Source of the DNA: an uncultured Lachnospiraceae bacterium
GTDB taxonomy: Bacteria > Bacillota > Clostridia > Lachnospirales > Lachnospiraceae
Length of the DNA stretch: 60,648 nt
NCBI GenBank assembly: GCA_900316805.1
Contig: ONEJ01000059.1
Location: 1-60,648, forward strand
Reading direction: 5' to 3'
The notes beneath the pieces are model-generated. The model saw only the letters and a list, made by a program, of their open reading frames with translations, was not told the DNA's origin and did not search any database. Below are positions 6,898 through 42,803 of the stretch, one piece after another; position 1 is the first letter of the stretch, and the number at the start of each line of letters is the position of its first letter. The position numbers and the translations under genes are program-made.

Positions 6898-8789
6898 TGC
6901 CGGGACCACACGGACCAAAGGGACCAAAACCGAAAATTAAAAATCCGGGAAAACTGTTTTCCCGCCTGATGGGATATGTGCTGAAACGCTATGGCGCGCT
7001 CTATGCCATTGTTGTGATCTCTATCCTTCTTAGTGTTCTCTGCAACACCCAGGGAACCATGTTTATGAAAACCCTGATCGATGACTATATTACCCCCATG
7101 CTACAAAGCCAGAAGGTCGATTATGGGCCGCTTCTTGCAGCCATTGGCAGAGTCGCAGGATTTTATGCACTGGGAGTCATCGCCACCTTTGTTTACAACA
7201 AGCTGCTGATCTATGTGTCCCAGGGAAGCATCCGGAATCTCAGAGATGATCTCTTTTCCCATATGCAGGATCTGCCCATCCGCTACTTTGACACCCACTC
7301 CCACGGAGATATCATGTCTGTTTACACCAACGATATCGATACCCTCCGGCAGGTGATCAGCCAGAGTATTCCGCAGCTTCTGAACAGTCTGGTGACCATC
7401 GTGAATGTCTTTATCTATATGGTGATCTTAAGTGTTCCCCTGACGGTTCTGACACTGGTTATGGTGGGGGTAACCCTCTATACCACCAAGTGCTTTGCAG
7501 GCTCCTCCAGCCGCTATTTTCTGGCTCAGCAGAAGAATCTGGGACAGGTCAATGGCTTCATTGAGGAGATGATAAACGGACAGAAGGTGGTAAAGGTCTT
7601 TACTCATGAAGAGCAGAATATCAAGGATTTCAACCGGCTGAACGAGGAGCTTTTTGACAGTGCCTACAATGCCAACCGCTATTCCAACTATCTGGGGCCG
7701 GTCAACGCCCAGATTGGAAACTTAAGCTATGTGCTCTGCGCCATGGTGGGAGGAGTGTTTGCCCTGACGGGCTTTAGCGGTCTGACCCTTGGAAAACTGG
7801 CCAGCTTCCTGACCTTCAACAAGAGCTTTAACATGCCCATCCAGCAGGTCAGCATGCAGCTAAACAGCGTGGTCATGGCTCTGGCCGGGTGCGAACGCAT
7901 TTTCTCTCTGCTGGATGAACAGCCGGAAACGGATGAGGGTTACGTCACTTTAGTCAATGCCAAAGAGGAAAACGGCAAACTCACAGAAACGGATGAGGAA
8001 ACCGGTCTCTGGGCCTGGAAGCATGTGCATCAGGCGGACGGCTCTGTGGATTACATCCGTCTGACGGGAGATGTGGTCTTTGATGATGTGGACTTTGGCT
8101 ATGTGCCGGAAAAAACCGTGCTCCACAACGTGGATCTCTATGCAACACCGGGCCAGAAAATTGCCTTCGTAGGCTCCACCGGAGCCGGAAAAACCACCAT
8201 TACCAACCTGATCAACCGCTTTTACGATATTCAGGATGGCAAGATCCGCTACGACGGCATCAACATCAACAAGATTAAGAAGGCTGACTTACGGCATTCT
8301 CTGGGTATGGTACTGCAGGATACCCACCTGTTTACCGCCAGTGTCATGGACAATATCCGCTACGGCAAGCTGAATGCCACGGATGAGGAAGTCTACGCAG
8401 CGGCCAGACTGGCCAACGCCGACACCTTTATCCGCCAGCTGCCGGAGGGCTATGATACGATCCTCACCGGTGATGGTGCCAACTTAAGCCAGGGACAGCG
8501 GCAGATGATCGCTATCGCAAGGGCAGCCATTGCCAATCCACCGGTGCTGATCTTAGATGAGGCCACCAGTTCCATCGATACCCGCACGGAACGCATCGTC
8601 CAGGACGGCATGGATAAGCTGATGGCGGGACGCACCACCTTCGTCATTGCCCACCGGCTCTCCACGGTCCGCAACAGTGACTGTATCATGGTTTTAGAGC
8701 AGGGACGCGTGATCGAGCGGGGCAGCCATGATGAATTGATGGCGGCTAAAGGGAAATATTACCAGCTTTATACAGGAAAGACGGCGTAG
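6897..8789 (+). CDS. ABC exporter half-transporter, canonical ATP site
   Basis: A 630-residue partner of the preceding gene with membrane helices in about residues 25-330. Its ATPase is fully canonical: Walker A GSTGAGKTT (about 426), signature LSQGQ (about 528), Walker B ILDEATSS and H-loop AHRLST. A soluble insertion of about 45 residues lies between the two domains (around ETDEETGLWAWKHVHQADG), which accounts for the extra length over the partner. The N-terminus is proline/lysine-rich (PGPHGPKGPKPK). The start overlaps the upstream stop, so the two halves should be made in equal amounts. A strong hairpin terminator follows. Confidence 0.92.
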   Translation: MPGPHGPKGPKPKIKNPGKLFSRLMGYVLKRYGALYAIVVISILLSVLCNTQGTMFMKTLIDDYITPMLQSQKVDYGPLLAAIGRVAGFYALGVIATFVYNKLLIYVSQGSIRNLRDDLFSHMQDLPIRYFDTHSHGDIMSVYTNDIDTLRQVISQSIPQLLNSLVTIVNVFIYMVILSVPLTVLTLVMVGVTLYTTKCFAGSSSRYFLAQQKNLGQVNGFIEEMINGQKVVKVFTHEEQNIKDFNRLNEELFDSAYNANRYSNYLGPVNAQIGNLSYVLCAMVGGVFALTGFSGLTLGKLASFLTFNKSFNMPIQQVSMQLNSVVMALAGCERIFSLLDEQPETDEGYVTLVNAKEENGKLTETDEETGLWAWKHVHQADGSVDYIRLTGDVVFDDVDFGYVPEKTVLHNVDLYATPGQKIAFVGSTGAGKTTITNLINRFYDIQDGKIRYDGININKIKKADLRHSLGMVLQDTHLFTASVMDNIRYGKLNATDEEVYAAARLANADTFIRQLPEGYDTILTGDGANLSQGQRQMIAIARAAIANPPVLILDEATSSIDTRTERIVQDGMDKLMAGRTTFVIAHRLSTVRNSDCIMVLEQGRVIERGSHDELMAAKGKYYQLYTGKTA

Positions 8790-13304: not shown

Positions 13305-14598
13305 AATACACTCCGTTCGTCTCAATCTTAACCTCTGCCCCATCCGATGCTATTTTCCGGAAAAACGCCGTCTGTACCAGTGCTTCCGAAAAAATTGAGC
13401 TAAAGGTAAATACCAGGGTGTCCTGATAGGAACAGATGGTTCCCTTGATGGACTGCCCCTTGGACATGGCAAGAAATGCATGAAAATAATCAATATATGG
13501 CTTGTACAACTCTTCAATCTTTACATTGCCGATATTGGTGATGGTGGTGGTGTTGGCCACCGCTGATTTCTCGTAAACCAGCCGCATGACGATATTCTTG
13601 ATAAACAGCGGAATCGGCCGCATCAGCTTATTCATCTGGTTGGACACACTGTAAGAAAACAGATCCTCCAGATGCTCCTTGCTGATCTGGGCATGGAGGC
13701 TGTCACACACGATCTTTACCACCTCTTCAAAGGTGTAGGAATCCTTCTCAGGCCGAAACTCTGCGGAAACCATCACAAAGAAATTTTTCGTAGTATCAGA
13801 GTCAAAATAAGGCCGTAAATTGACCGGAACGGCCACCCGGATGGGCCGCTTCCCCGGCATCCCGTGAAACAGTTCCCTGTACACACTCCACACGAACACA
13901 GAAACCAGATATTCATTGATGGAAGCCCCGTATCGGTGGGCAATCTCCTTTAATTCCTTCACGGACATGATGCCGTGCATCACCCCAAACTCCCCTGCCG
14001 GAAGCCGGTTCTCTTTGATGAGATATGCCTTTTCCTTATGAAAGCCACTGGGCCTGCTCTGCTTATAATTTCTTACAAAGCTGTCCTCCCGGCTCAAGGA
14101 GGTATCCTCGCTTAAGCTGTCTCCCGACTGTTCCTTCAGTTCGGGATGCACCAGCCGCAGATACTGGTAGGTCAGTTCTCTCAGGAAATTGATACCGCCC
14201 ATGCCATCCGTCAACACATGGAATACTTCCAGATTGATACGGTTCTTATAATAGCTGACCCTAAACAGATAATTCCGGTTCTTGTTCTGCCTGATATACC
14301 GGCAGGGGAAACGGTTCTCCTCCCTGACCGTGGGAGCCTTTTTCCCATTTTCCTCAAAATAATACCAGAAAACACCGGTACGCATCCGCACGTTAAAGCC
14401 ATCGATCTTCGGCAGCACTCTGTCGAGAGCCTCCTGAAGGATTTCCCTTTGAATTTCCTCCTTCAGCACCACACTGATCCGGTACACATTGGTCATGTTT
14501 TCCCCTGCAATGGAGGGAAACAGATGTGCCGTATTGTCCAACTTATCCCAGCGGATTTCCCGGGAAATCGTTCTTTTTGACTTCTTTTTATCTTTCAT
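13297..14598 (-). CDS. Condensation-domain-like acyltransferase
   Basis: A 433-residue protein with the HXXXDG catalytic motif of condensation/BAHD/alcohol-acetyltransferase folds: FHVLTDGMGG, His127 and Asp131. The later part has IRVAVPVNLRPYF and a conserved TNIGNV segment, as expected for the second half of such two-lobed enzymes. No carrier-protein or adenylation domain is nearby, so a free acyl-CoA donor is likely. The first residues are very basic (KDKKKSKR). It is the first of three overlapping genes. The product could be an acyl ester of an alcohol or sugar; this is not determined by sequence. Confidence 0.75.
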   Translation of the reverse strand: MKDKKKSKRTISREIRWDKLDNTAHLFPSIAGENMTNVYRISVVLKEEIQREILQEALDRVLPKIDGFNVRMRTGVFWYYFEENGKKAPTVREENRFPCRYIRQNKNRNYLFRVSYYKNRINLEVFHVLTDGMGGINFLRELTYQYLRLVHPELKEQSGDSLSEDTSLSREDSFVRNYKQSRPSGFHKEKAYLIKENRLPAGEFGVMHGIMSVKELKEIAHRYGASINEYLVSVFVWSVYRELFHGMPGKRPIRVAVPVNLRPYFDSDTTKNFFVMVSAEFRPEKDSYTFEEVVKIVCDSLHAQISKEHLEDLFSYSVSNQMNKLMRPIPLFIKNIVMRLVYEKSAVANTTTITNIGNVKIEELYKPYIDYFHAFLAMSKGQSIKGTICSYQDTLVFTFSSIFSEALVQTAFFRKIASDGAEVKIETNGVYYE

Positions 14599-21656: not shown

Positions 21657-22925
21657 CTATCTCAGTTCCGCGATTCGTGATACTGCTACATAGATATCCG
21701 AAATCTTATACCAGGTAGGATAATCCACCACGCCCGTTACCGGAAGACCGAATACCGACTGGAATTTCTCCACGGCCTCCCTGGTTCTGTTGCCATAAAC
21801 TCCGTCCGCTGTCACGGTAGGGATTGCCGGATAAGATCTGGAAATCCGCGCCAGCTGCTCCTGAAGCATCCGTACCTTATCCCCGCTGGCACCTACCCCC
21901 AGATCATATCCGGGCCAGGATGCCGGAATGCCGGAAATTCCCTGGGCACTGTTGATATACATATCATTGCCGTAGTAATTCCTCAGTATCTCAATGGCAG
22001 AATACCCCTGGTCTCCCAGATATTTACTGCCCCACTGGGACATCCAGTTGGGACAGCTCACCCGCTGGCCGTCGCAGTACTGGGTCAGGATCGGCTGCCG
22101 CACCCCCGGTCTGGACAAGTAGTTTTCAAACATCTCATCCACCACCCTGGAAATGCTCTGGAAATAATTGCGTCCAAACATAAACTTGTGGTCATAGGCC
22201 GTGGAGGAGGTGATGGTGAACTGGTAGCCTTTGCCCCGGTACCACTCCGTATAGACCCTGTTTAAGGTAAAGGACATGATTGCCAGAATATTGGCCCGAA
22301 GCGTGGCGTCCGGCCAGGTGGCATAAATCTCTGAGGATGCTACATTCTTGATGTAGTCCCGGTACCGCACATAATAATTTGCCGCAGTAGAATCCGACGG
22401 TGCCCCATCATGCACCACTACGTACTCCGGGATTACCACACGGCTCAATACAATTTCTCCGGTTTCCTCCATGGGCTTGATTTCATCCTCCGGGATCTTC
22501 GGTGGATATTCCCCGTAGAGCGTATGGGCCGGAATTACAATGGTGTCTATGGGATTGCCCGGAGCATCCTCTGCCTCCATGCTCACATTTTGAATGGCGG
22601 CTTCCCCCGGAAGGATATCAATCGCCGAAACTGTAATTTCCCGGTAGCCCGGTGCCTGGACCCGGATTGTATACTCCGCATAGGGCTGCTGTTCCCCCGG
22701 CTCCATGGAGTATTCCAGCGGCGGAGCATTAAGCGTAATCGTCTCACTGTTTCCGGAATCATCCGTGTTCACCTCCTCCAGCGTAACCGACGAATTTCCA
22801 GTATAGGAAATTGCTATTTTTGCCCCCTGCACCGGGTTGCCGGTGGAAGCGTTTGTCAGACTGATGCGAAGCGTTCCTTTATCTATATTGTTGGCACTTT
22901 CATTTACATTCTGCTGCAGATCCAT
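21657..22925 (-). CDS. SpoIID-like protein with peptidoglycan-binding domain
   Basis: A 422-residue protein in three parts. Residues 15-140 look like carboxypeptidase-regulatory (Ig-like) domains (NPVQGAKIAI, PGYREITVS). Residues about 185-335 are SpoIID-like: YVRYRDYIKNVASSEIYATW, then RANILAIMSFTLN, then SQWGSKYLGDQGYSAIEILR. Residues 345-415 are a PG_binding_1 domain (SGDKVRMLQEQLARIS, TADGVYGNRTREAVEKFQ). SpoIID is a lytic transglycosylase of engulfment. There is no signal peptide, so action inside the forefront of the mother cell or spore is inferred from relatives. Confidence 0.75.
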   Translation of the reverse strand: MDLQQNVNESANNIDKGTLRISLTNASTGNPVQGAKIAISYTGNSSVTLEEVNTDDSGNSETITLNAPPLEYSMEPGEQQPYAEYTIRVQAPGYREITVSAIDILPGEAAIQNVSMEAEDAPGNPIDTIVIPAHTLYGEYPPKIPEDEIKPMEETGEIVLSRVVIPEYVVVHDGAPSDSTAANYYVRYRDYIKNVASSEIYATWPDATLRANILAIMSFTLNRVYTEWYRGKGYQFTITSSTAYDHKFMFGRNYFQSISRVVDEMFENYLSRPGVRQPILTQYCDGQRVSCPNWMSQWGSKYLGDQGYSAIEILRNYYGNDMYINSAQGISGIPASWPGYDLGVGASGDKVRMLQEQLARISRSYPAIPTVTADGVYGNRTREAVEKFQSVFGLPVTGVVDYPTWYKISDIYVAVSRIAELR

Positions 22926-22964
22926 ACAAGATCCTTTATATTTTTTGATGTTAGTGTATGCATC

Positions 22965-22993
22965 TTGTGAAAAAAGGTTCCCATTGCTATACT
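22965..22993 (+). promoter_or_regulatory. Promoter of the flavin reductase gene
   Basis: A -35 TTGTGA (22965-22970), a 17-base spacer and a -10 TATACT (22988-22993) point to the flavin reductase gene, leaving a leader of about 90 bases that ends in AGGAGG. A second, weaker -35 (TTGACC, 23024) lies inside that leader. Confidence 0.55.
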
Positions 22994-23086
22994 AGTTTTA
23001 TGATGCAAGGGTCAGTATTCCTTTTGACCTTCATTTCATTGTATCATAACGCATATTAATATTTAAAGTATACAGGAGGATTTTTT

Positions 23087-23593
23087 ATGAACACATTTCA
23101 ACCATGTCCTATGGATCAATTAGAAATGAACCCTTTCACCAAGATTGGAAAAGAATGGGCTTTAGTCTCTGCGGGCAATGCGGACAAATGCAATACCATG
23201 ACTGTCAGCTGGGGAGGCGTCGGTGTCCTCTGGGGCAAAAATGTCGTTTACATTTTTATCCGGGATTCCCGCTACACCAAGGAATTTCTGGACAACGGAG
23301 AACTGTTTTCCCTCTCCTTCTTAGGGGAGGAATACCGTGGTGCCTTAAACTACTGTGGCAGCCACAGCGGAAGAAACGAGGATAAGTTTGCAGCAGCAGG
23401 ACTTAGCCCTGCCTTCCGGAACAATATTCCTTATCCGGATGAAGCAAACCTTGTGCTTCTCTGCCGCAAGATGGCGGTGGTTCCAATTTCGGAGGATACT
23501 TTCACAGATCCTGAAATTGCATCCCGCTGGTATACAGATCATGACATGCACAACATGTATGTTGGGGAGATTCTTGAGGCTGTGACCCGGTAA
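23087..23593 (+). CDS. Flavin reductase-like domain protein
   Basis: A 168-residue single-domain protein of the flavin reductase-like (FMN-binding split barrel) family. Indicators are SAGNADKCNTMTVSWGGVG near the N-terminus, RDSRYTKEFLDNGELFSLS and NYCGSHSGRNEDKFAAAG. Related proteins reduce or bind FMN; the true acceptor is unknown. ACAGGAGGA precedes the ATG. It is a single gene, divergent from the SpoIID-like gene and followed by a hairpin terminator built from a repeat copy. Confidence 0.85.
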   Translation: MNTFQPCPMDQLEMNPFTKIGKEWALVSAGNADKCNTMTVSWGGVGVLWGKNVVYIFIRDSRYTKEFLDNGELFSLSFLGEEYRGALNYCGSHSGRNEDKFAAAGLSPAFRNNIPYPDEANLVLLCRKMAVVPISEDTFTDPEIASRWYTDHDMHNMYVGEILEAVTR

Positions 23594-29935: not shown

Positions 29936-30092
29936 CCTTTTCCTCCATATATCAAAAAAGTTCCAGGCGCTGGGAGAACATTCTTTTCCTGCTCTACCAC
30001 ATGCCTGGAACCCCATAGATTCTTTCCTATTCGATCAGTCTGTTGGATATCAAACTCTCTACCGGCCCATGACTCCAACCACACTTCCTATA

Positions 30093-30569
30093 TCAATAGG
30101 GTGCGCGGCTGATGCGCATTGGCTCTCCCATCGTCCCCTCATTCAAAATCTTGTTAATACAAATCTCGCACACATCCCCATCACGATCCTGTACACGAAT
30201 CACATGGGTGGACACCCATTGGTACTGATTGCCCCGGCCCTTCTGGTACAGTTTAATCGAAACCTCTTTCTTTCCCTGACCAAAGCTCTGTAACAGCTTC
30301 TCTCTGGAAAAATTCTGCAGAAACAGACTCTGGTAATTGGGATGGATGTACTCCGCTCCATAATCGATCAAATCGTCATATTTTCCTGTCATCGGAAGCT
30401 CACCCGCCAAAAAACCATCATCCTTGATCATGGTGTAGGTATTCTTGGTAAGATTCGCTGATACGATCATCGGATATGCCTGAGATACGGCTTCAAACAC
30501 CAAAAGAATGTCCTTCACACTGATTCCGTTTAATGCCTCAAATTCTTCAAATGTCTTTCCTAGTTTCAT
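30093..30569 (-). CDS. Single PAS-fold protein
   Basis: A 158-residue protein resembling the PAS domain found in front of GGDEF or kinase modules in Lachnospiraceae. Typical parts are LVFEAVSQAYPMIVSANLTKNTYTMI and YDDLIDYGAEYIHPNYQSLF, ending in WVSTHVIRVQDRDGDV. There is no output domain and no transmembrane segment, and the frame stops cleanly. It may be a stand-alone sensor or a remnant of a larger signalling protein. GGGGGG lies before the ATG. Confidence 0.6.
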   Translation of the reverse strand: MKLGKTFEEFEALNGISVKDILLVFEAVSQAYPMIVSANLTKNTYTMIKDDGFLAGELPMTGKYDDLIDYGAEYIHPNYQSLFLQNFSREKLLQSFGQGKKEVSIKLYQKGRGNQYQWVSTHVIRVQDRDGDVCEICINKILNEGTMGEPMRISRAPY

Positions 30570-30916: not shown

Positions 30917-30919
30917 AAG

Positions 30920-30992
30920 AGCGATAGACGGGGCTCGAACCCGCGGTCTCGACCTTGGCAAGGTCGCGCGTTACCAACTACGCCACTATCGC
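30920..30992 (-). tRNA. tRNA-Gly (anticodon GCC)
   Basis: On the minus strand the acceptor stem is GCGATAG/CTATCGC with discriminator U. The anticodon stem CGACC/GGTCG holds loop TTGCCAA, giving GCC for glycine GGC/GGU codons. The T-arm is GCGGG-TTCGAGC-CCCGT. The length is 73 nucleotides, and CCA is not encoded. U as discriminator is normal for bacterial tRNA-Gly. Confidence 0.95.
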
Positions 30993-31175
30993 ATTTCTTA
31001 AGTTCTCTGTGTTCTCCTGAACACATTTAGTATAATACCAGAGGCAACTGCATCTGTCAACCATTTTTTTAAATTTTTTTAATTTTTTTCAATTATTTGC
31101 ACGATTGCGATAATTCAGAAGACCGGATTCCCAAGCTTCATACATTGATTCGCATATAAACAGACTGACAAGGGA

Positions 31176-31206
31176 GAAAGAGTCTGGTACACCGATGTAC
31201 CAGACT
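31176..31206 (-). terminator. Terminator of the NHL-repeat gene
   Basis: A perfect 11-bp stem AGTCTGGTACA/TGTACCAGACT with loop CCGA lies 22 bases past the stop. On the minus strand it is followed by CTTTCTCCCTT, pyrimidine-rich but not an unbroken U-run. Confidence 0.75.
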
Positions 31207-31227
31207 AAGGAACCCGGCTCAATTGAT

Positions 31228-31917
31228 CTACAGCTTGATTCGAAGCAATTCCTCCGTAAACATGTCTCCCACAAACAGGTATCCGCCCTTTATCATCAGG
31301 CCGCAGGGCTCTGCAGGTGCTCTCAAGTCGTTCAGAGAATACGCCTTCACCAGCTCTGTGACTTTTCCCTTGCCAAGCTTCTTCACGGAGCCGTTTCCGG
31401 TATCGGAAATGTACATCACATCCTTGTACATAAGGATCTCCTGTGGATTGGAGAACCGGGCCGACAGAGCGCTTCCCACGGAATCCCCCTCGATTCCCTT
31501 GCGGCTTCCAGCAACGGTCTTTACCTGACCATTCTCTATCTTACAGATGCGGTGGTTGCCGGAATCTGCTACGTACAATGCTCCCTTGTAGTAGTACAGT
31601 CCCGTAGGCTCACAGAAGCCTGCCGACTTCGCGGCACTTCCGTCCTTGTAACCGCTCTTTCCCAACTGACCTGCCAGAACCACATAATTACCGCTCTGGT
31701 TGCGCCTGCGCAGCACATGATAGGTTCGGTCTGCCATGTAAAGTCTTCCACCCCTGTCCTTCGAAATCCCGGAAACAGCCATTGCCGTCTGGCTTTTCTG
31801 GGCAGCCGTATTCTCCGTTGTCTGTGCCGCCAGGACAGTCATTGTTTTCCCCTGGGGCACTGCTGCCACGCAACCCAAAAGCAGTGCAGCTATCACAATC
31901 CACGCCTTTTTCTTCAC
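31228..31917 (-). CDS. Secreted NHL-repeat protein
   Basis: A 229-residue protein with a signal peptide (GTG start at 31917; MKKKAWIVIAALLLGCVAAV). NHL-like beta-propeller repeats follow: GRLYMADRTYHVLRR, GALYVADSGNHRICKI, VMYISDTGNGSVKKL and GYLFVGDMFTEELLRI. Only about four blades are seen, fewer than a complete six-bladed propeller. GGAGGT lies upstream. It is downstream of the ruined cyclase gene and was probably part of its operon. It is the only gene of that locus that still looks intact. Confidence 0.75.
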   Translation of the reverse strand: MKKKAWIVIAALLLGCVAAVPQGKTMTVLAAQTTENTAAQKSQTAMAVSGISKDRGGRLYMADRTYHVLRRRNQSGNYVVLAGQLGKSGYKDGSAAKSAGFCEPTGLYYYKGALYVADSGNHRICKIENGQVKTVAGSRKGIEGDSVGSALSARFSNPQEILMYKDVMYISDTGNGSVKKLGKGKVTELVKAYSLNDLRAPAEPCGLMIKGGYLFVGDMFTEELLRIKL

Positions 31918-31941
31918 ATTCCCTTACCTCCATTTTCTAAT

Positions 31942-33435
31942 TTAAAGTAATTCTTCTGCCTGCAGCACTTCAAAGCCTGCGGCCTTACCCTTCAGAGGAA
32001 CACTGTCCCCTAGGGAAGTAAACCGCACGCGGCCCTCCAAGGCATCTGCCACCGCGCGGCTGACATAGATACAGCCTCCCGGTGCATTGGCCTCCAGCCG
32101 TGCCGCCGTATTGACCGTATCCCCAATGGCAGTGTAGTCCATGCGGTTCGGTGCTCCAATATTGCCTACAACGGCGGGGCCGAAATGTACGCCTACACCA
32201 AAGCTTACGGTCCTTCCATATTTCTCTTCCAGTTCCTTCTGCAATGCCGCAGACCTCTCAATCATGGCAAAGGCCGTCTTTACCGCTTTATAAATACTGT
32301 CCTCCTGGGGCAGCGGTGCTCCCCAGAAAGCCATGGTACAGTCCCCGACAAATTTGTCCAGTGTACCGTTATTCTCAAAAATGCAGGTACTGGTCAAGGT
32401 CAGATACCGATTCAGAATCTGCACGATCTCCGGCGCCACGTATCGCTTAAAGGTAGCCGTCACACGCCGTTTCTCCATGGCCGCCCGCAGGTACCCGGAA
32501 ACGATGCTGCTGACAAACAGCAGGGTTACCGCCAGCGGAATATACAGCGGGGACAGCACAAGGCCTTTTGCGTATGCCAACATGCAGATTCCCAGATATC
32601 CCGCCACAGTTCCCAGCCATCCGGTAAATACCAGAGCAAATTTTCTCCGGTAAAAAAGCAGCGTCCACAAAATACTCACCAGAATGACTGCCACAAGCTG
32701 TGATGCCGTACCCGCTTCCCGCTTCGTCTGTCCCCGCAGGAGAGCGTCCACCATATTGGCCTGGTATTCCACACCATACATCTTACCGGCGTGGTCAATG
32801 GCCGTTGCAAAATCGTCCTGCATGCCTGCCGCATAAGGGCGGATCATCACGATCTTCCCGGCATAGGCAGAAGGGTCGATTTCCCCATTCAACAAATCCA
32901 CCACACCATATCCATCACTGTATGCCCCCGGTTCACCCTGAAACGGAATGTAGTACCGGTATCGGGAATCCGTAACCGGAACCGCCTTGGGTTTCTGTCC
33001 GGTCTGCTCACAGTACAGCTCGTAAATCTGCCGGTGAAAGGAAGGAATCTGCTGCCCATCCGGCAGATCGATCTGCCAAATTCCGTGCCGGAGAACCCCG
33101 TCGGAATCAAACATGGAATTGATGTGTCCCTGCCAGGTGGCATCCTTCAGTTCATCATAAGGCTCATCATAGGCTGTCAGCGCGTACTCATCCACGGAAA
33201 AACTCCCGTCCTTATGCTCCACCACCTGGGAACCGAAGGTACCGGCACAGGCCGTGACCACCGGACAGCTGTTGGCGCAGGCTTCTGCCAGATAGGCATC
33301 CCCCTCCGGATCATCGGATTCCCCCACGTAAAGAACGTCAAGAGCGATCAGGAGGAGAAAGGTCCCATTTCGTCCAGACTCTTCTGATCTATATTGATCA
33401 GTACAACATTGCCGTCCGATGGCACTGTCAATAGA
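31942..33435 (-). pseudogene. CHASE2-adenylate/guanylate cyclase, inactivated
   Basis: A degraded membrane sensor: CHASE2 (about 33330-32700), then three membrane segments, then a class III cyclase domain. Lesion one: near 33380-33435 the normal reading (SDGNVVLINIDQKSLDEMGPF) is in another frame and ends in TGA, and the segment after GPF is deleted. Lesion two: RYVAPEIV is joined directly to QILNRYLTLT near 32425. Intact members have about 60 residues here, including the VDIRGFT segment with the metal-binding Asp. The remaining C-terminus (KFVGDCTMAFWGAP, NRMDYTAIGDTVNTAARLE) is well conserved, so decay is recent. Catalysis is impossible as read. Confidence 0.8.
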
Positions 33436-34375
33436 GGACTTTTCTGCCTTGAAGTAAAGTTTCTCATCATTCCATGTTATATACTGTTTTTTAGCTTCAA
33501 TAATAGCAGTATCTGCTGCAATTACAGTCTTATCCGCTGAAGTGTTTTGAATCACCCCACTTTGTACTGTGCTGTCTGCCGAACCGTTAAAGGAAAGAGT
33601 TCCACCCTGCAGCACGCGGATGACGGTTTCCCCGCTTCCCGTAACAGACTCTACATCTGTCAGTGTCAGATTTCCCGCGGTCTGAAGTTCGTAGGTTCCC
33701 AGTGTGGCATTCATGTTCTTAAGTTCAATGTCTGCGCCTGCCGGTATAAGCATACTTCATCCTGATTATCGAATTGTTCACAATCCTTGAGCCGCCGGAA
33801 CTGGTGATCTTCCCTCCGTCAATAATTCCGTCATTGGTTATACAGCTGCCATTTTCCAGCTTAATCTCATCTGCCAGCAGTCTTCCATCGGATGTCAGGG
33901 TCAGGTTTTTTGCCGAAATAGTACCATTATTCACAAGCCCGGCAACCGTACCGCCCCCTTCTATGCTGATGGATCCGTTCCCTGTGATGGTTCCCTCTGC
34001 CACAATTTGGCCACCACTCTGAATCTGAAGTGCTGCCCCCTGTTCCATCTTTAACTCGGCCCCGGAAGCAACCGTCAGCTTTTTTCCCTTCTGCCGCAGA
34101 GATGCCCTGGTGTTTTCGTCAAGCTTAACTGCCTTGCTGTTGTCCAGACTGATATAAGCGCTGCTCTCTTTGCCGGTTTCTACGGAGTTTCCGTTGTACA
34201 GCCGCATCCCCAGAGAAATCTTGCACGTTGTTCCATTCTACGTCTTAACCTTCACTGTCCCCTCTGTCTGGGTCAGCTTCATGGTGGTCGCCCGCGCCGT
34301 TGCCGCATATACCGGGGTACAGGTAGAACCTGCCAAAAGCAGCACCATTACCACACTGAGTACTTTACTTATCCC
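33436..34375 (-). pseudogene. FecR-domain protein, inactivated
   Basis: The remains start with a signal-peptide-like SKVLSVVMVLLLAG near 34372, which lacks an ATG, GTG or TTG at its expected place. The frame reads TQTEGTVKVKT and then hits a TAG at 34238-34240. It continues in frame as GMRLYNGNSVETGKESSAYISL, typical of FecR domains, then as a beta-solenoid (QSGGQIVAEGTITGNGSI). Near 33740 the frame shifts to IPAGADIELKNMNATLG. The C-terminal end is fused to the broken cyclase gene. Four separate lesions make function very unlikely. Confidence 0.75.
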
Positions 34376-35401
34376 CCCTCAATCCGCGTGGATATCCGCT
34401 TCCGTTCAACCTCTCATGGTGCTGGATGGCATAGGTGACGACTTCCTTATATTCCTCCCCAAATTCCATCTGCTCCAGCATACGCCGGGTCATTTCCACG
34501 TGATCCTGCATGATCTGGCGTTCCTGCTCCGTCAGGGTTCCCCGTTTGATCAGAAGCTGCTGCCGTTCCTCCTTGGTAATCCAAGGCTGCACCGTGCCGT
34601 CCTCCTCCTCGTAGGTCCGGGCGGTCAGTTCCATAACCTGATCCCGGAGTGTATCCGTCAGAAATCCTGCTTCGTTAACCTTGTCGATCAGTTCTCTCTC
34701 CTGAACCGCATCCTCTAACAACTGCTTTTCCCATCCTCTCCGATGATTCCCTGCAGCCTTTCAATCTTTGTGAGCAGCCGGATCCTATCCAGACGATCCA
34801 TTACCCTCTGATAATTTTCTCCCAGCCGGTCTTTCTTGTCCATAATCTCCGCCGGGGTGATGAGTTTTCCAATATCATGGAGTCTGACACTCATCAGGAA
34901 AATATATTCTTCCTTCTCATTGAATGACCATCCCAGCTGCTGCCTGTTCAGCCAATTTATAAAACGTTTCGCATAGAGGGTCATATTGTTGGTATGGTTT
35001 GCGGTGTAGGGCGATCTCTCATCCACCGCCGTTGTTATGACCCGCACGAAGGAATCCAGCATTTTCTGGATCTGCTGGGCGTACTGGCGATTCGTCAGGC
35101 AGATAGCCGCCTGAGAGCCCAGTGCTGACAGGATCTGCTCATATTCTGTCCGGAAGGGGATCACATTTCCATCCTCATCCAGAGCATTGATCAACTGGAG
35201 CACACCGATGACCTCTCCCTTATCGTCCTCCATGGGAACCACCATCATGGTCTGGGTCCGGTAGCCGGTGATCTGGTCATATTTCTTCGGACCGGAAAAA
35301 TCATAGACCGAGCTTACGTACACACTTGGAATATTGATCAGACTTCGGGAAAGTACGCCGCAGGCACACACATTTTCCTTCGACAACGGCACTGGCGGCA
35401 T
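34365..35401 (-). pseudogene. GAF/HD-GYP phosphodiesterase, inactivated
   Basis: A cyclic-di-GMP phosphodiesterase-type protein. The GAF part (YRTQTMMVVPMEDDKGEVIGVLQLIN) starts in mid-domain, since the N-terminus is deleted. The HD motif is in RLHDIGKLITPAEIM. Near 34720-34735 the reading shifts frame (after LQGIIGEDGK) and resumes as QLLEDAVQERELIDKVNEAG. The HHERLNGSGYPRGLRGD motif at the end is cut by a stop at the junction with the FecR gene, so the rest of the HD-GYP domain is missing. Inactive as read. Confidence 0.8.
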
Positions 35402-35685
35402 TTTGATCTCACCTCCGCTGCCTCCCTGTCATAAAAGATTGGACCTGTAAGTATCCCCAGCATATGATCAATGTGAAAATGTGTAAAAAACACATGCACC
35501 TTCTCGTGCTCCTTCCACACGCGTTCCGGCAGATTCATAAGGCCTGTACCGGCATCAAAAATCACCGCATCGGATGCTGTTTCCAGTAAAACACAGGCAG
35601 TGGCACCGCCATAGGTAGAAAACTGCTCCCCGCTGACCGGCATGCTCCCCCTGGCACCCAGAATTGTTATCTGACTATTCTTCAC
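35402..35685 (-). pseudogene. Metallo-beta-lactamase-fold protein, truncated
   Basis: The first 95 residues or so of an MBL-fold hydrolase: ILGARGSMPVSGEQFSTYGG, FDAGTG and the metal motif THFHIDHMLGI (HXHXDH). Full-length members are about 250 residues. Here the reading ends after PIFYDREAAEV, where sequence of the next gene's GAF domain begins in another frame. A deletion clearly joined the two genes. The later metal-binding His and Asp residues are missing. Confidence 0.75.
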
Positions 35686-35855
35686 CTTCTGCTCTCCTAA
35701 CTGTTCTTTTTAGTTTTATCGAAAATTACCCCATGTTATTATCATACTACCATGTCCATTCGCAAATGAAAATAGAAAAACACAAAAATCATGTGCCGTG
35801 CATGAAATAAAAAACGCCCGCATACACTTTAGGGAACAGGAAATGGAGGTAAATT

Positions 35856-36287
35856 ATGAGCGTAAAAACCAAAATCGTCGTTCTTCATATGAAAAAGCTG
35901 ATCTTTGCAGGCATTGCCGCACTCCTTGGCATCTTACTTATTCTTTTACTTTTTCTCACCTTACGTAACCGGGAGTCCTCTGGAGGGGAATCGGTGCCCA
36001 CTCTGTATGTGCCGGGGGTATATACCTCTTCCGTCATGATCGATCAGACCGCTATCGATGTACAGGTGGCTGTGGACGAAAATCATATTAACTCCATTTC
36101 ACTCATTAATCTGGATGAATCCGTGGAAACCATGTATCCCCTGATCAAGCCTACGCTGGAGGAGTTGTCCCAGCAGATCATCACGAAGCAGTCTGTGGAT
36201 GATATTACATATTCCAAAAACAACCAGTACACCTCTATGCTGCTGCTTTCCGCAGTAACCGACGCATTAAAAAAGGCATCGCCCTAA
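35856..36287 (+). CDS. Membrane-anchored, degenerate FMN-bind-like protein
   Basis: A 143-residue protein with one N-terminal membrane anchor (about residues 14-36) and an outside domain. From PGVYTSSVMI to SMLLLSAVTDALKKA it follows the shape of the FMN_bind domain, including IDVQVAVDENHINSISLIN. The usual D-[SA]-[ASG]-T flavin-attachment threonine motif is replaced by ITYSKNNQYTS, so covalent flavin is doubtful. GGAGGT precedes the ATG. A single gene; a hairpin terminator overlaps its end. Confidence 0.6.
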   Translation: MSVKTKIVVLHMKKLIFAGIAALLGILLILLLFLTLRNRESSGGESVPTLYVPGVYTSSVMIDQTAIDVQVAVDENHINSISLINLDESVETMYPLIKPTLEELSQQIITKQSVDDITYSKNNQYTSMLLLSAVTDALKKASP

Positions 36288-41293: not shown

Positions 41294-42803
41294 TCATGAC
41301 CCGATATATTTATCCAGCTTATGGGAAACAGAAAGAACACTGTCTAACTGCTTCTTTGCATGCTCTGCATTATCCAGATTCTCCACGGAAAGATCCGCTG
41401 CCTGTGCACTGGATGCGGTAACCTCCTCTGTCGTTGCTGACAGATTGCTTATATGATCAACGATCTGGTTGTTGGAATCCGAAAGGCTTCCCAGCATACT
41501 GTTGATATTCTCAATCTCAGAAATCAGGCTGTTCACATTGTCATTCATGATTGCAAAACTCTCGGAAGCCTGCCCAATCATAGAATCCTGCGCATTGACC
41601 GCATCAATGGAGGAGTGAACAGCATCTGCTGCATTGTTTGCATTTTCGGAAAGTTCCCCAAGAATGGAGGCAATGTTTTCCGTTTCGCTTCTGGTCTTCT
41701 CTGCAAGATCCCGGATCTCATCGGCAACTACCGCAAAGCCTCTGCCGGCCTCTCCTGCTCTCGCACTCTCAATGGACGCATTTAATGCCAGCAGATTGGT
41801 CTGGCTGGAAATCGAAAAGATCGTATCGGCGATACTCTTCACGGCAGTGGTTCTCTCCTGTAATGCCTTCATGGATGCCTCAACACCCGTGTTAGTATCT
41901 GCAATGACCTTCGACTGATTTTTCAGACTGTTCATGATTGCAAGGCTCTGGCGGTTCAGTTCCCCGGACTGCTTAGCCACATTGACCATATTCTGTGAAA
42001 AAGAAATCGTCTGCTCAGTAGAATTCTGAATATTCTGAGTCATCATTGTCTGGGCCTGAATATTTTCCGCCGTATTTTGCGTGCTGGAAGAAATATCACG
42101 CATAGCTCCATTGACGATCTCCGTGGAACTGTTCAGGCTGCTGACAATTCCCATGGCATTTTCCGTACCCTGACGAATTTCACCGGCAACTGCGATCACA
42201 TCATCCAGCATGGCTTTCTGTTTCCTCTGCTCCTGCTGCTGACTGCCTAAGGTATCTTCGTTAAACTGATAGGCAATCCCTGTAAGTGTTGCAGATCAGT
42301 ACCAGCATAATCATCAGTATCACCAGCGCCACCACAGAATCCACAATCTCGTATCCCCCGGCATGCCCGGTACCGAACCGAATTGCCATGGTCACTACCA
42401 TTACCAGCGCGTAGCCCGCACCGGACATCCAGGCATACTTCCGTTCAAAAAACACAACACATACGATAAGGGGTAATGCCCCCAGAAAACGGATAGAATC
42501 CTGTCCAAAACCATAGCTCATGCAGCCAGCGATAATAAACAATCCCAGGGCTGCAATGTATCTGAGCAGGTTGGAAGCCGGTTTCCTGCGCCTTCCGATT
42601 AAAAGCGGTATTTCAGCGGCCAGCACCATTCCCGTCACCAGAGCCGCAAAAGCGGTAGTCTGAATTCCCCGAAGCTTCGCCATCCATACCAGAAGAATCA
42701 CAATGCCGTAAAAAATCACATATACCTTAACAAGCACCTCATTGGCCTAAATAATCTGCTGCGCCCTGTCAGCATACCGGTAATTTTTATCATTTGTCTC
42801 CAT
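41294..42803 (-). pseudogene. Membrane methyl-accepting chemotaxis protein, inactivated
   Basis: With GGAGGG upstream, the ATG at 42803 begins METNDKNYRYADRAQQII and is stopped at once by TAG (42747-42749, codon 19). In the same frame, ANEVLVKVYVIFYGIV and five or six membrane segments continue to about 42275. There the frame shifts, and the signalling domain ([20 protein letters not shown] onward) continues in another frame. The tip [31 protein letters not shown] is intact. So the gene has one nonsense codon and one frameshift. Residual translation could give a soluble C-terminal fragment, but full function is lost as read. Confidence 0.75.

Follow-up and report, generated by a model that had tools for sequence, protein, structure and literature searches.

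A 60,648-nucleotide stretch of DNA from an uncultured Lachnospiraceae bacterium, here called the window, carries at 31.2–35.7 kb of its minus strand a row of coding remnants resembling a signalling locus. Are these the ruins of a complete operon and, if so, what was the operon, how did it come to lie there, and how long ago was it lost? Lachnospiraceae are a common family in gut habitats. The genome in question, G000, comprises 2,251,978 bases in 103 contigs, of which the window is C79, and is 82.3% complete.

Lesions of the five genes

From 35,685 down to 31,228 the remnants are those of an MBL-fold hydrolase, a GAF/HD-GYP protein, a FecR protein, a CHASE2-adenylate cyclase and an NHL-repeat protein: Pfam matches identify all but FecR, which is known by homology. 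Lesions were mapped by aligning the proteins of intact relatives to the window; as the original prediction had suggested, junctions were also aligned to relatives keeping the full locus, four of them base by base, and the deletion sizes agree (129 bp in 5 of 7 relatives, 67 bp in 6 of 6, 744 bp in 3 of 4 and 312 bp in 3 of 5). By this sequence comparison, the region is confirmed as a broken copy of an operon kept intact in relatives. Seven deletions in the five adjacent genes are firm and an eighth is probable; an amber codon and a small frameshift come in addition. Three of the deletions fuse neighbouring genes (MBL/HD-GYP, HD-GYP/FecR, FecR/cyclase). The operon, 7,075 bp long at locus L134, measures 4,458 bp here. 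The original prediction, made from the letters of the window, had described a signalling locus collapsed by deletions: every lesion that it named was recovered, while its interpretation as a whole is partly supported.

The MBL-fold hydrolase (35428–35685, minus strand, as all remnants and junctions below) is reduced to about its first third, by Pfam and by comparison with intact proteins of 269–296 aa (L134, L133, L024, L026): only the first 86–110 residues match, the domain is about a third complete, and the C-terminus is lost, as had been claimed. At 35429–35452 the gene is fused to GAF/HD-GYP, with about 744 bp missing (744 bp relative to L133, L134 and L026; 768 bp relative to L024). This is the only lesion of MBL in the window: the statement that each gene is broken in at least two ways is thus true of HD-GYP, FecR and the cyclase, and not of MBL.

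The GAF/HD-GYP remnant (34368–35446) has lost both ends, about the first 59–80 and the last 63–71 residues, and lies in two frames relative to 6 of 6 HD-GYP proteins of relatives, with a frameshift near 34,710–34,735; losses and frameshift had both been foreseen. The HD and HHE..GYP motif residues are kept, but spread over two frames instead of one; the HD and GYP residues are invariant in 33 of 33 related proteins. The C-terminal part is joined to the N-terminal part of FecR at 34331–34367, a junction placed by protein alignment and not base by base.

FecR survives in pieces (33436–34330, by protein alignment). Its N-terminus, including the start, is gone through the fusion to HD-GYP; an amber codon stands at 34238–34240, where 6 of 6 aligned FecR proteins (from 5 loci) have a sense codon; and the frame changes near 33,740. 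All three defects correspond to those first described. The frame change is accompanied by a probable deletion of uncertain size: the gap amounts to 66–90 residues relative to L134, L141, L023 and one L022 copy, and to 15 relative to the other L022 copy. Beyond a junction at 34076–34078 most of the FecR domain is gone: the close match stops at 34076 relative to L134, L141, L088, L024, L023 and one of the two L022 copies, and a Pfam scan of the window frame 33725–34207 gave no match to PF04773, which is present in the intact L134 protein. Since complete FecR genes in relatives (n = 49) range from 294 to 1865 aa, a further gap near 33,907–33,958 (relative to L141) was left out of the tally; the shortening of FecR may in part be natural. 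At 33418–33435 the C-terminal part is fused to the N-terminal part of the cyclase (frames and positions by protein alignment, not base by base), at the cost of the FecR end, the intergenic gap and about 42–62 cyclase residues.

The cyclase remnant (31945–33351), 67–78% identical to intact cyclases in protein alignments to the window, comprises the rest of CHASE2, a membrane segment and a catalytic domain without the first metal site; Pfam CHASE2 and Guanylate_cyc both score over cut-off, and both are partial. As predicted, the gene is out of frame and has lost its VDIRGFT segment. The former is seen upstream of a 67 bp deletion in the CHASE2 region, with its junction at 33348–33350 (6 of 6 relatives); the latter corresponds to a 129 bp in-frame deletion at 32421–32427, removing the first metal-binding segment (129 bp relative to L133, L022, L088, L024 and L026; L023 and L134, both poor fits, give 128 and 126 bp). 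In these enzymes two aspartates bind the catalytic metals, and a lysine and an aspartate select ATP. Five of the six catalytic positions checked are kept in the window: among them are the ATP-selecting Lys and Asp and the second metal aspartate, all invariant in 76 of 76 relatives. The first metal aspartate, D in all 76 aligned relatives, is absent, so that the pair is incomplete. An open frame of 603 aa (31942–33753) runs from the FecR remnant into the cyclase; by the alignment frames it is partly out of frame.

The NHL gene (31228–31917) had been taken to be intact, and a possible output of the system. Base alignment to relatives contradicts this: near 31624–31634 the gene has lost, in frame, about 312 bp relative to L133, L022 and L088, 288 bp relative to L134 and 315 bp relative to L023, the last a poor fit, and encodes 229 aa against 327–349 aa in the closest relatives. 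Being itself deleted in part, NHL is not an untouched output gene. A strong hairpin, noticed by eye just downstream (31179–31204) and not reported by a consensus terminator scan, may be the operon terminator.

Homologues naturally having these short forms would have offered another explanation, which fails on the sequences of the relatives. The motif D-[IVL]-R-G-[FY]-T, deleted in the window, is kept in 80 of 80 related cyclases (594–716 aa when complete; two of the 80 end at contig edges), and the 47 complete NHL relatives (from 46 loci; a further 10 are truncated at contig edges) all have at least 327 aa.

The operon in relatives

The relatives are the best 80 of 141 confirmed cyclase relatives, from a scan of species genomes; gene families were counted by running models built from the closest copies on these 80 loci. 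All five families occur together at 22 of the 80 loci, and at 14 of the 36 whose flanks are long enough on either side: among the latter, MBL, HD-GYP and cyclase are found together at 21, FecR at 30 and NHL at 26. The commonest full order, MBL, HD-GYP, FecR, cyclase, NHL, is that of the remnants. It is found at 15 loci, all from Clostridia (L028, L029, L034, L036, L037, L041, L046, L052, L055, L073, L074, L075, L087, L088, L091), and at two more with two FecR genes; many of the other loci end at contig edges, and some have different orders or missing genes. The NHL protein of L041 contains SLH domains.

Operons of Lachnospiraceae and Oscillospiraceae at L029/L134 (JAQXZD010000034.1), L030/L133 (JALEZW010000011.1) and L088 (JALFNQ010000214.1) consist of the same gene families as the window but have full-length frames, no fusions and different genome locations. 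Gene order in L029 and L088 equals that of the window, the MBL gene of L088 being cut by a contig end; L030 has no FecR between its genes, and the same genome has a FecR on another contig (L141).

Identity of the remnants to the nearest copies is 85% for the cyclase, 75% for HD-GYP, 68% for NHL and 64% for MBL. For the cyclase, L088 (85%) is nearest by a small margin; the SecA of that genome is 81–82% identical to that of six genomes of the window's genus, against 93–96% within the genus. The other three, HD-GYP, MBL and NHL, are nearest to L030, a copy from the same-genus genome G060; an origin outside the genus is therefore not required, and transfer from another genus is not claimed, the tree leaving the fork undecided. 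Among 62 same-genus genomes searched, 18, one of them the window's own, match the cyclase at E 1e-20 or better. Carriage on plasmids was discarded: the ten matches listed for an intact cyclase against plasmids, all rhizobial, show 29–31% identity. One of the 650 records in the plasmid search falls in the 60–80% identity band.

Assembly and the rest of the genome

The deletions might be assembly or library artefacts, the organism having the full operon at this place. G000 looks metagenome-assembled, judging by its contig number and completeness, and the remnants show no point decay, as expected of working genes. Against this, a separate false join would be required at every junction, and the locus also has an amber codon and a small frameshift. 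Homology at the junctions, as read from relatives about 25% diverged, would moreover be too little for bridging by k-mer assembly: break points at the four aligned junctions are ambiguous by only 0–5 bp relative to most relatives, with an imperfect homology of about 10 bp at the ends of the 129 bp deletion and homology that is scattered around the NHL one. Long direct repeats, suggested as something to look for at the deletion ends, were found neither at the four base-aligned junctions nor in the window's repeat list.

Breaks elsewhere are no commoner in G000 than in its sister species G018. Under a loose rule, with flags judged by eye and not curated singly, 30 of 281 G018 genes were flagged on 816 kb of G000, and 27 of 264 in the reverse comparison (5 of 64 and 3 of 60 in a smaller first one). 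No genome-wide excess of broken genes over G018 was thus seen, and the similar flags in both directions do not support genome-wide decay. On this evidence, we regard an assembly fault as unlikely.

Genes from other relatives, intact operons included, gave flags for 29 of 156 queries, 21 belonging to this operon and 8 to one chemotaxis gene, in a test that is blind to genes reduced to small remnants. Apparent real breaks outside the operon, identified by eye, lie at 41297–42803 of the window (a methyl-accepting chemotaxis-type gene, 499–516 aa in relatives, with a frameshift near 42,290), at 22843–23590 (a two-frame split of a gene that has 235 aa in G018), at 597–1954 of L155 and at 13752–14164 of L210. 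At 8442–9308 of L229 a gene is found in three pieces over two frames, the only other three-piece gene among the flags read. Recoded stop codons were rejected: in either genome, stops in conserved alignments often sit close to the ends of genes and opposite mixed residues, indicating start-site effects or ordinary breaks.

Age of the inactivation

Conservation was evaluated on relatives chosen by length (76 for cyclase, 33 for HD-GYP, 36 for MBL, 13 for NHL). At 198 positions conserved in at least 95% of relatives (109 in the cyclase, 61 in HD-GYP, 13 in MBL, 15 in NHL), the window differs at 2, both in the cyclase; at the 151 conserved in at least 98%, it differs at none. Intact relatives, left out in turn, show median changes of 1, 1, 0 and 0, in the same order of genes. 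Window-specific changes at codon positions 1, 2 and 3 are inside the range of intact copies, and the excess of nonsynonymous change expected under relaxed constraint is not seen in the remnants. Since these lack point-mutation decay, the inactivation looks very recent, in agreement with the original reading of well conserved motifs and recent loss; as a rough estimate, neutral divergence since then would be about 1% or less, at about 2.2 nonsynonymous sites per position.

Young pseudogenes of Salmonella provide a yardstick: they too were recently inactivated and eroded mainly by deletion, but, in the portion of the study cited here, 346 of 378 carry one inactivating mutation and few have lost more than 20% of their length (PMC2916853). 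By this measure it is unusual for five neighbouring genes to carry nine or ten lesions and no point decay. Many deletions with almost no point decay form an odd mix for a decaying operon, which a fast burst, like an assembly fault, would also match. Since conserved sites changed no more often than in working copies during the time in which seven or eight deletions accrued, these could stem from a short local burst, either a deletion shower or a single accident of replication or repair involving several template switches, and not from slow one-by-one decay; we consider such a burst an unlikely origin.

The insertion site

Alignment of the flanks delimits a block (31090–35818, with true edges within about 31.09–31.12 kb and 35.78–35.82 kb) that the window has and its same-genus relatives lack at this site. 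Its left neighbour is a tRNA-Gly (gcc) gene (30919–30992, minus strand). In G018, 82–86% identical in DNA around the site, 53 bp separate the tRNA-Gly region from the gene at 35,856, against 4.7 kb here. Nineteen same-genus stretches around feo or its neighbours were surveyed: 9 are without a usable flank, and in the 10 informative ones (G018, G005, G010, G058, G041, G073, G072, G049, G011, G051), about 66–87% identical over longer flanking blocks, the flanks are 45–619 bp apart, with no operon match between. These relatives, overlooked in the original prediction, favour arrival followed by decay over the loss of an old resident: the operon probably arrived at the tRNA-Gly/feo site in the window's lineage, and then decayed. 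No clear target-site duplication was found at the insertion.

That the operon is instead an old resident of the genus, which the sampled relatives have shed cleanly from this site and the window's lineage is now losing too, seems improbable. The empty sites could stem from several independent clean losses, and both the nine uninformative stretches and the proximity of three remnants to the G060 copy fit an old residence; but, besides the ten closed sites, the intact copies of G060 and G064 sit elsewhere. The G060 operon has ffh on one side and, on the other, a 403 aa gene and then ftsY; that of G064 adjoins an alaS-like gene (names assigned by eye). In G000 and G041 only 12 bp and 4 bp separate the two sides of the G060 site, which is thus itself empty there; the corresponding distances are about 3.2 kb in G018, 2.8 kb in G005 and 1.4 kb in G064.

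About 1 kb from the operon, between dus and the gene at 30093–30569, a remnant of about 105 bp (29955–30059) corresponds to a 255 aa frame of G018, with 61% protein identity over 36 residues and a stop present; its decay is apparently older.

Function of the intact operon

Among proteins of solved structure, the intact cyclase matches adenylate cyclases best by sequence, and the intact operon is most likely a cAMP module with a surface sensor. In intact relatives the membrane cyclase would sense an outside cue via CHASE2, with FecR and NHL as surface proteins, and make cAMP, while the HD-GYP and MBL enzymes would, we infer, hydrolyse cyclic nucleotides. The substrate of MBL is a guess, since an intact relative scores 49.6 bits against NF041851 (MBL-fold cyclic-nucleotide hydrolase), whose cut-off is 400.

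The window remnant shares the domain order of CHASE2-class III adenylate cyclases, and differs from them in the missing first metal-binding segment and N-terminal part. No publication on the five-gene combination MBL/HD-GYP/FecR/CHASE2-cyclase/NHL was found in literature searches; a related but different cluster is already published for another phylum, the Campylobacterota (PMC9239204). There, a CHASE2 adenylate cyclase is likewise grouped with a phosphodiesterase, acting on cAMP, and with FecR; the three are presented as a likely single pathway, and the cluster is reported to move between species, with signs of horizontal transfer. In the parts of that report cited here, a TPR protein takes the place of NHL, FecR is an outer-membrane protein, neither HD-GYP nor MBL is named, and no decay is described. 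In the BiofilmReg operon of Burkholderia (Proteobacteria), as far as the cited part of its description goes, a FecR surface protein gene also lies beside a CHASE2 sensor gene, but the protein is of FecR/LysM type and the output consists of a histidine kinase and a response regulator, not of cyclase, HD-GYP and MBL (PMC5192318). In Sinorhizobium, the CyaD1 cyclase without its CHASE2 domain is reported, in the section cited, to produce cAMP constitutively (PMC5498481).

A reduced but working system, in which the cell still makes and uses the short NHL protein and the fused FecR-cyclase, is very improbable: the NHL deletion and the 129 bp one keep the frame, the 603 aa frame is open and the residues left are conserved, but the cyclase lacks its first metal aspartate and is out of frame in its N-terminal part, HD-GYP carries a frameshift, FecR lacks its start and contains an amber codon, and MBL has shrunk to about a third. 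The frames of 603 and 229 aa, still open, speak somewhat against complete decay, and a partial product is possible; none of the genes in the window, except possibly NHL, would be expected to give a normal product.

Significance

Taken together, the comparisons make it likely that a complete five-gene operon, most likely a cAMP module in intact relatives, came to sit between the tRNA-Gly and feo genes in the window's lineage, was inactivated there, and is now being removed by deletions. The locus would thus give a clear picture of a multi-gene signalling operon shortly after its inactivation, with deletions far ahead of point mutations, and would illustrate ordinary gene loss with unusual clarity. 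It also draws attention to a five-gene operon that many Clostridia retain and that joins a CHASE2 adenylate cyclase and FecR with HD-GYP, MBL and NHL proteins.
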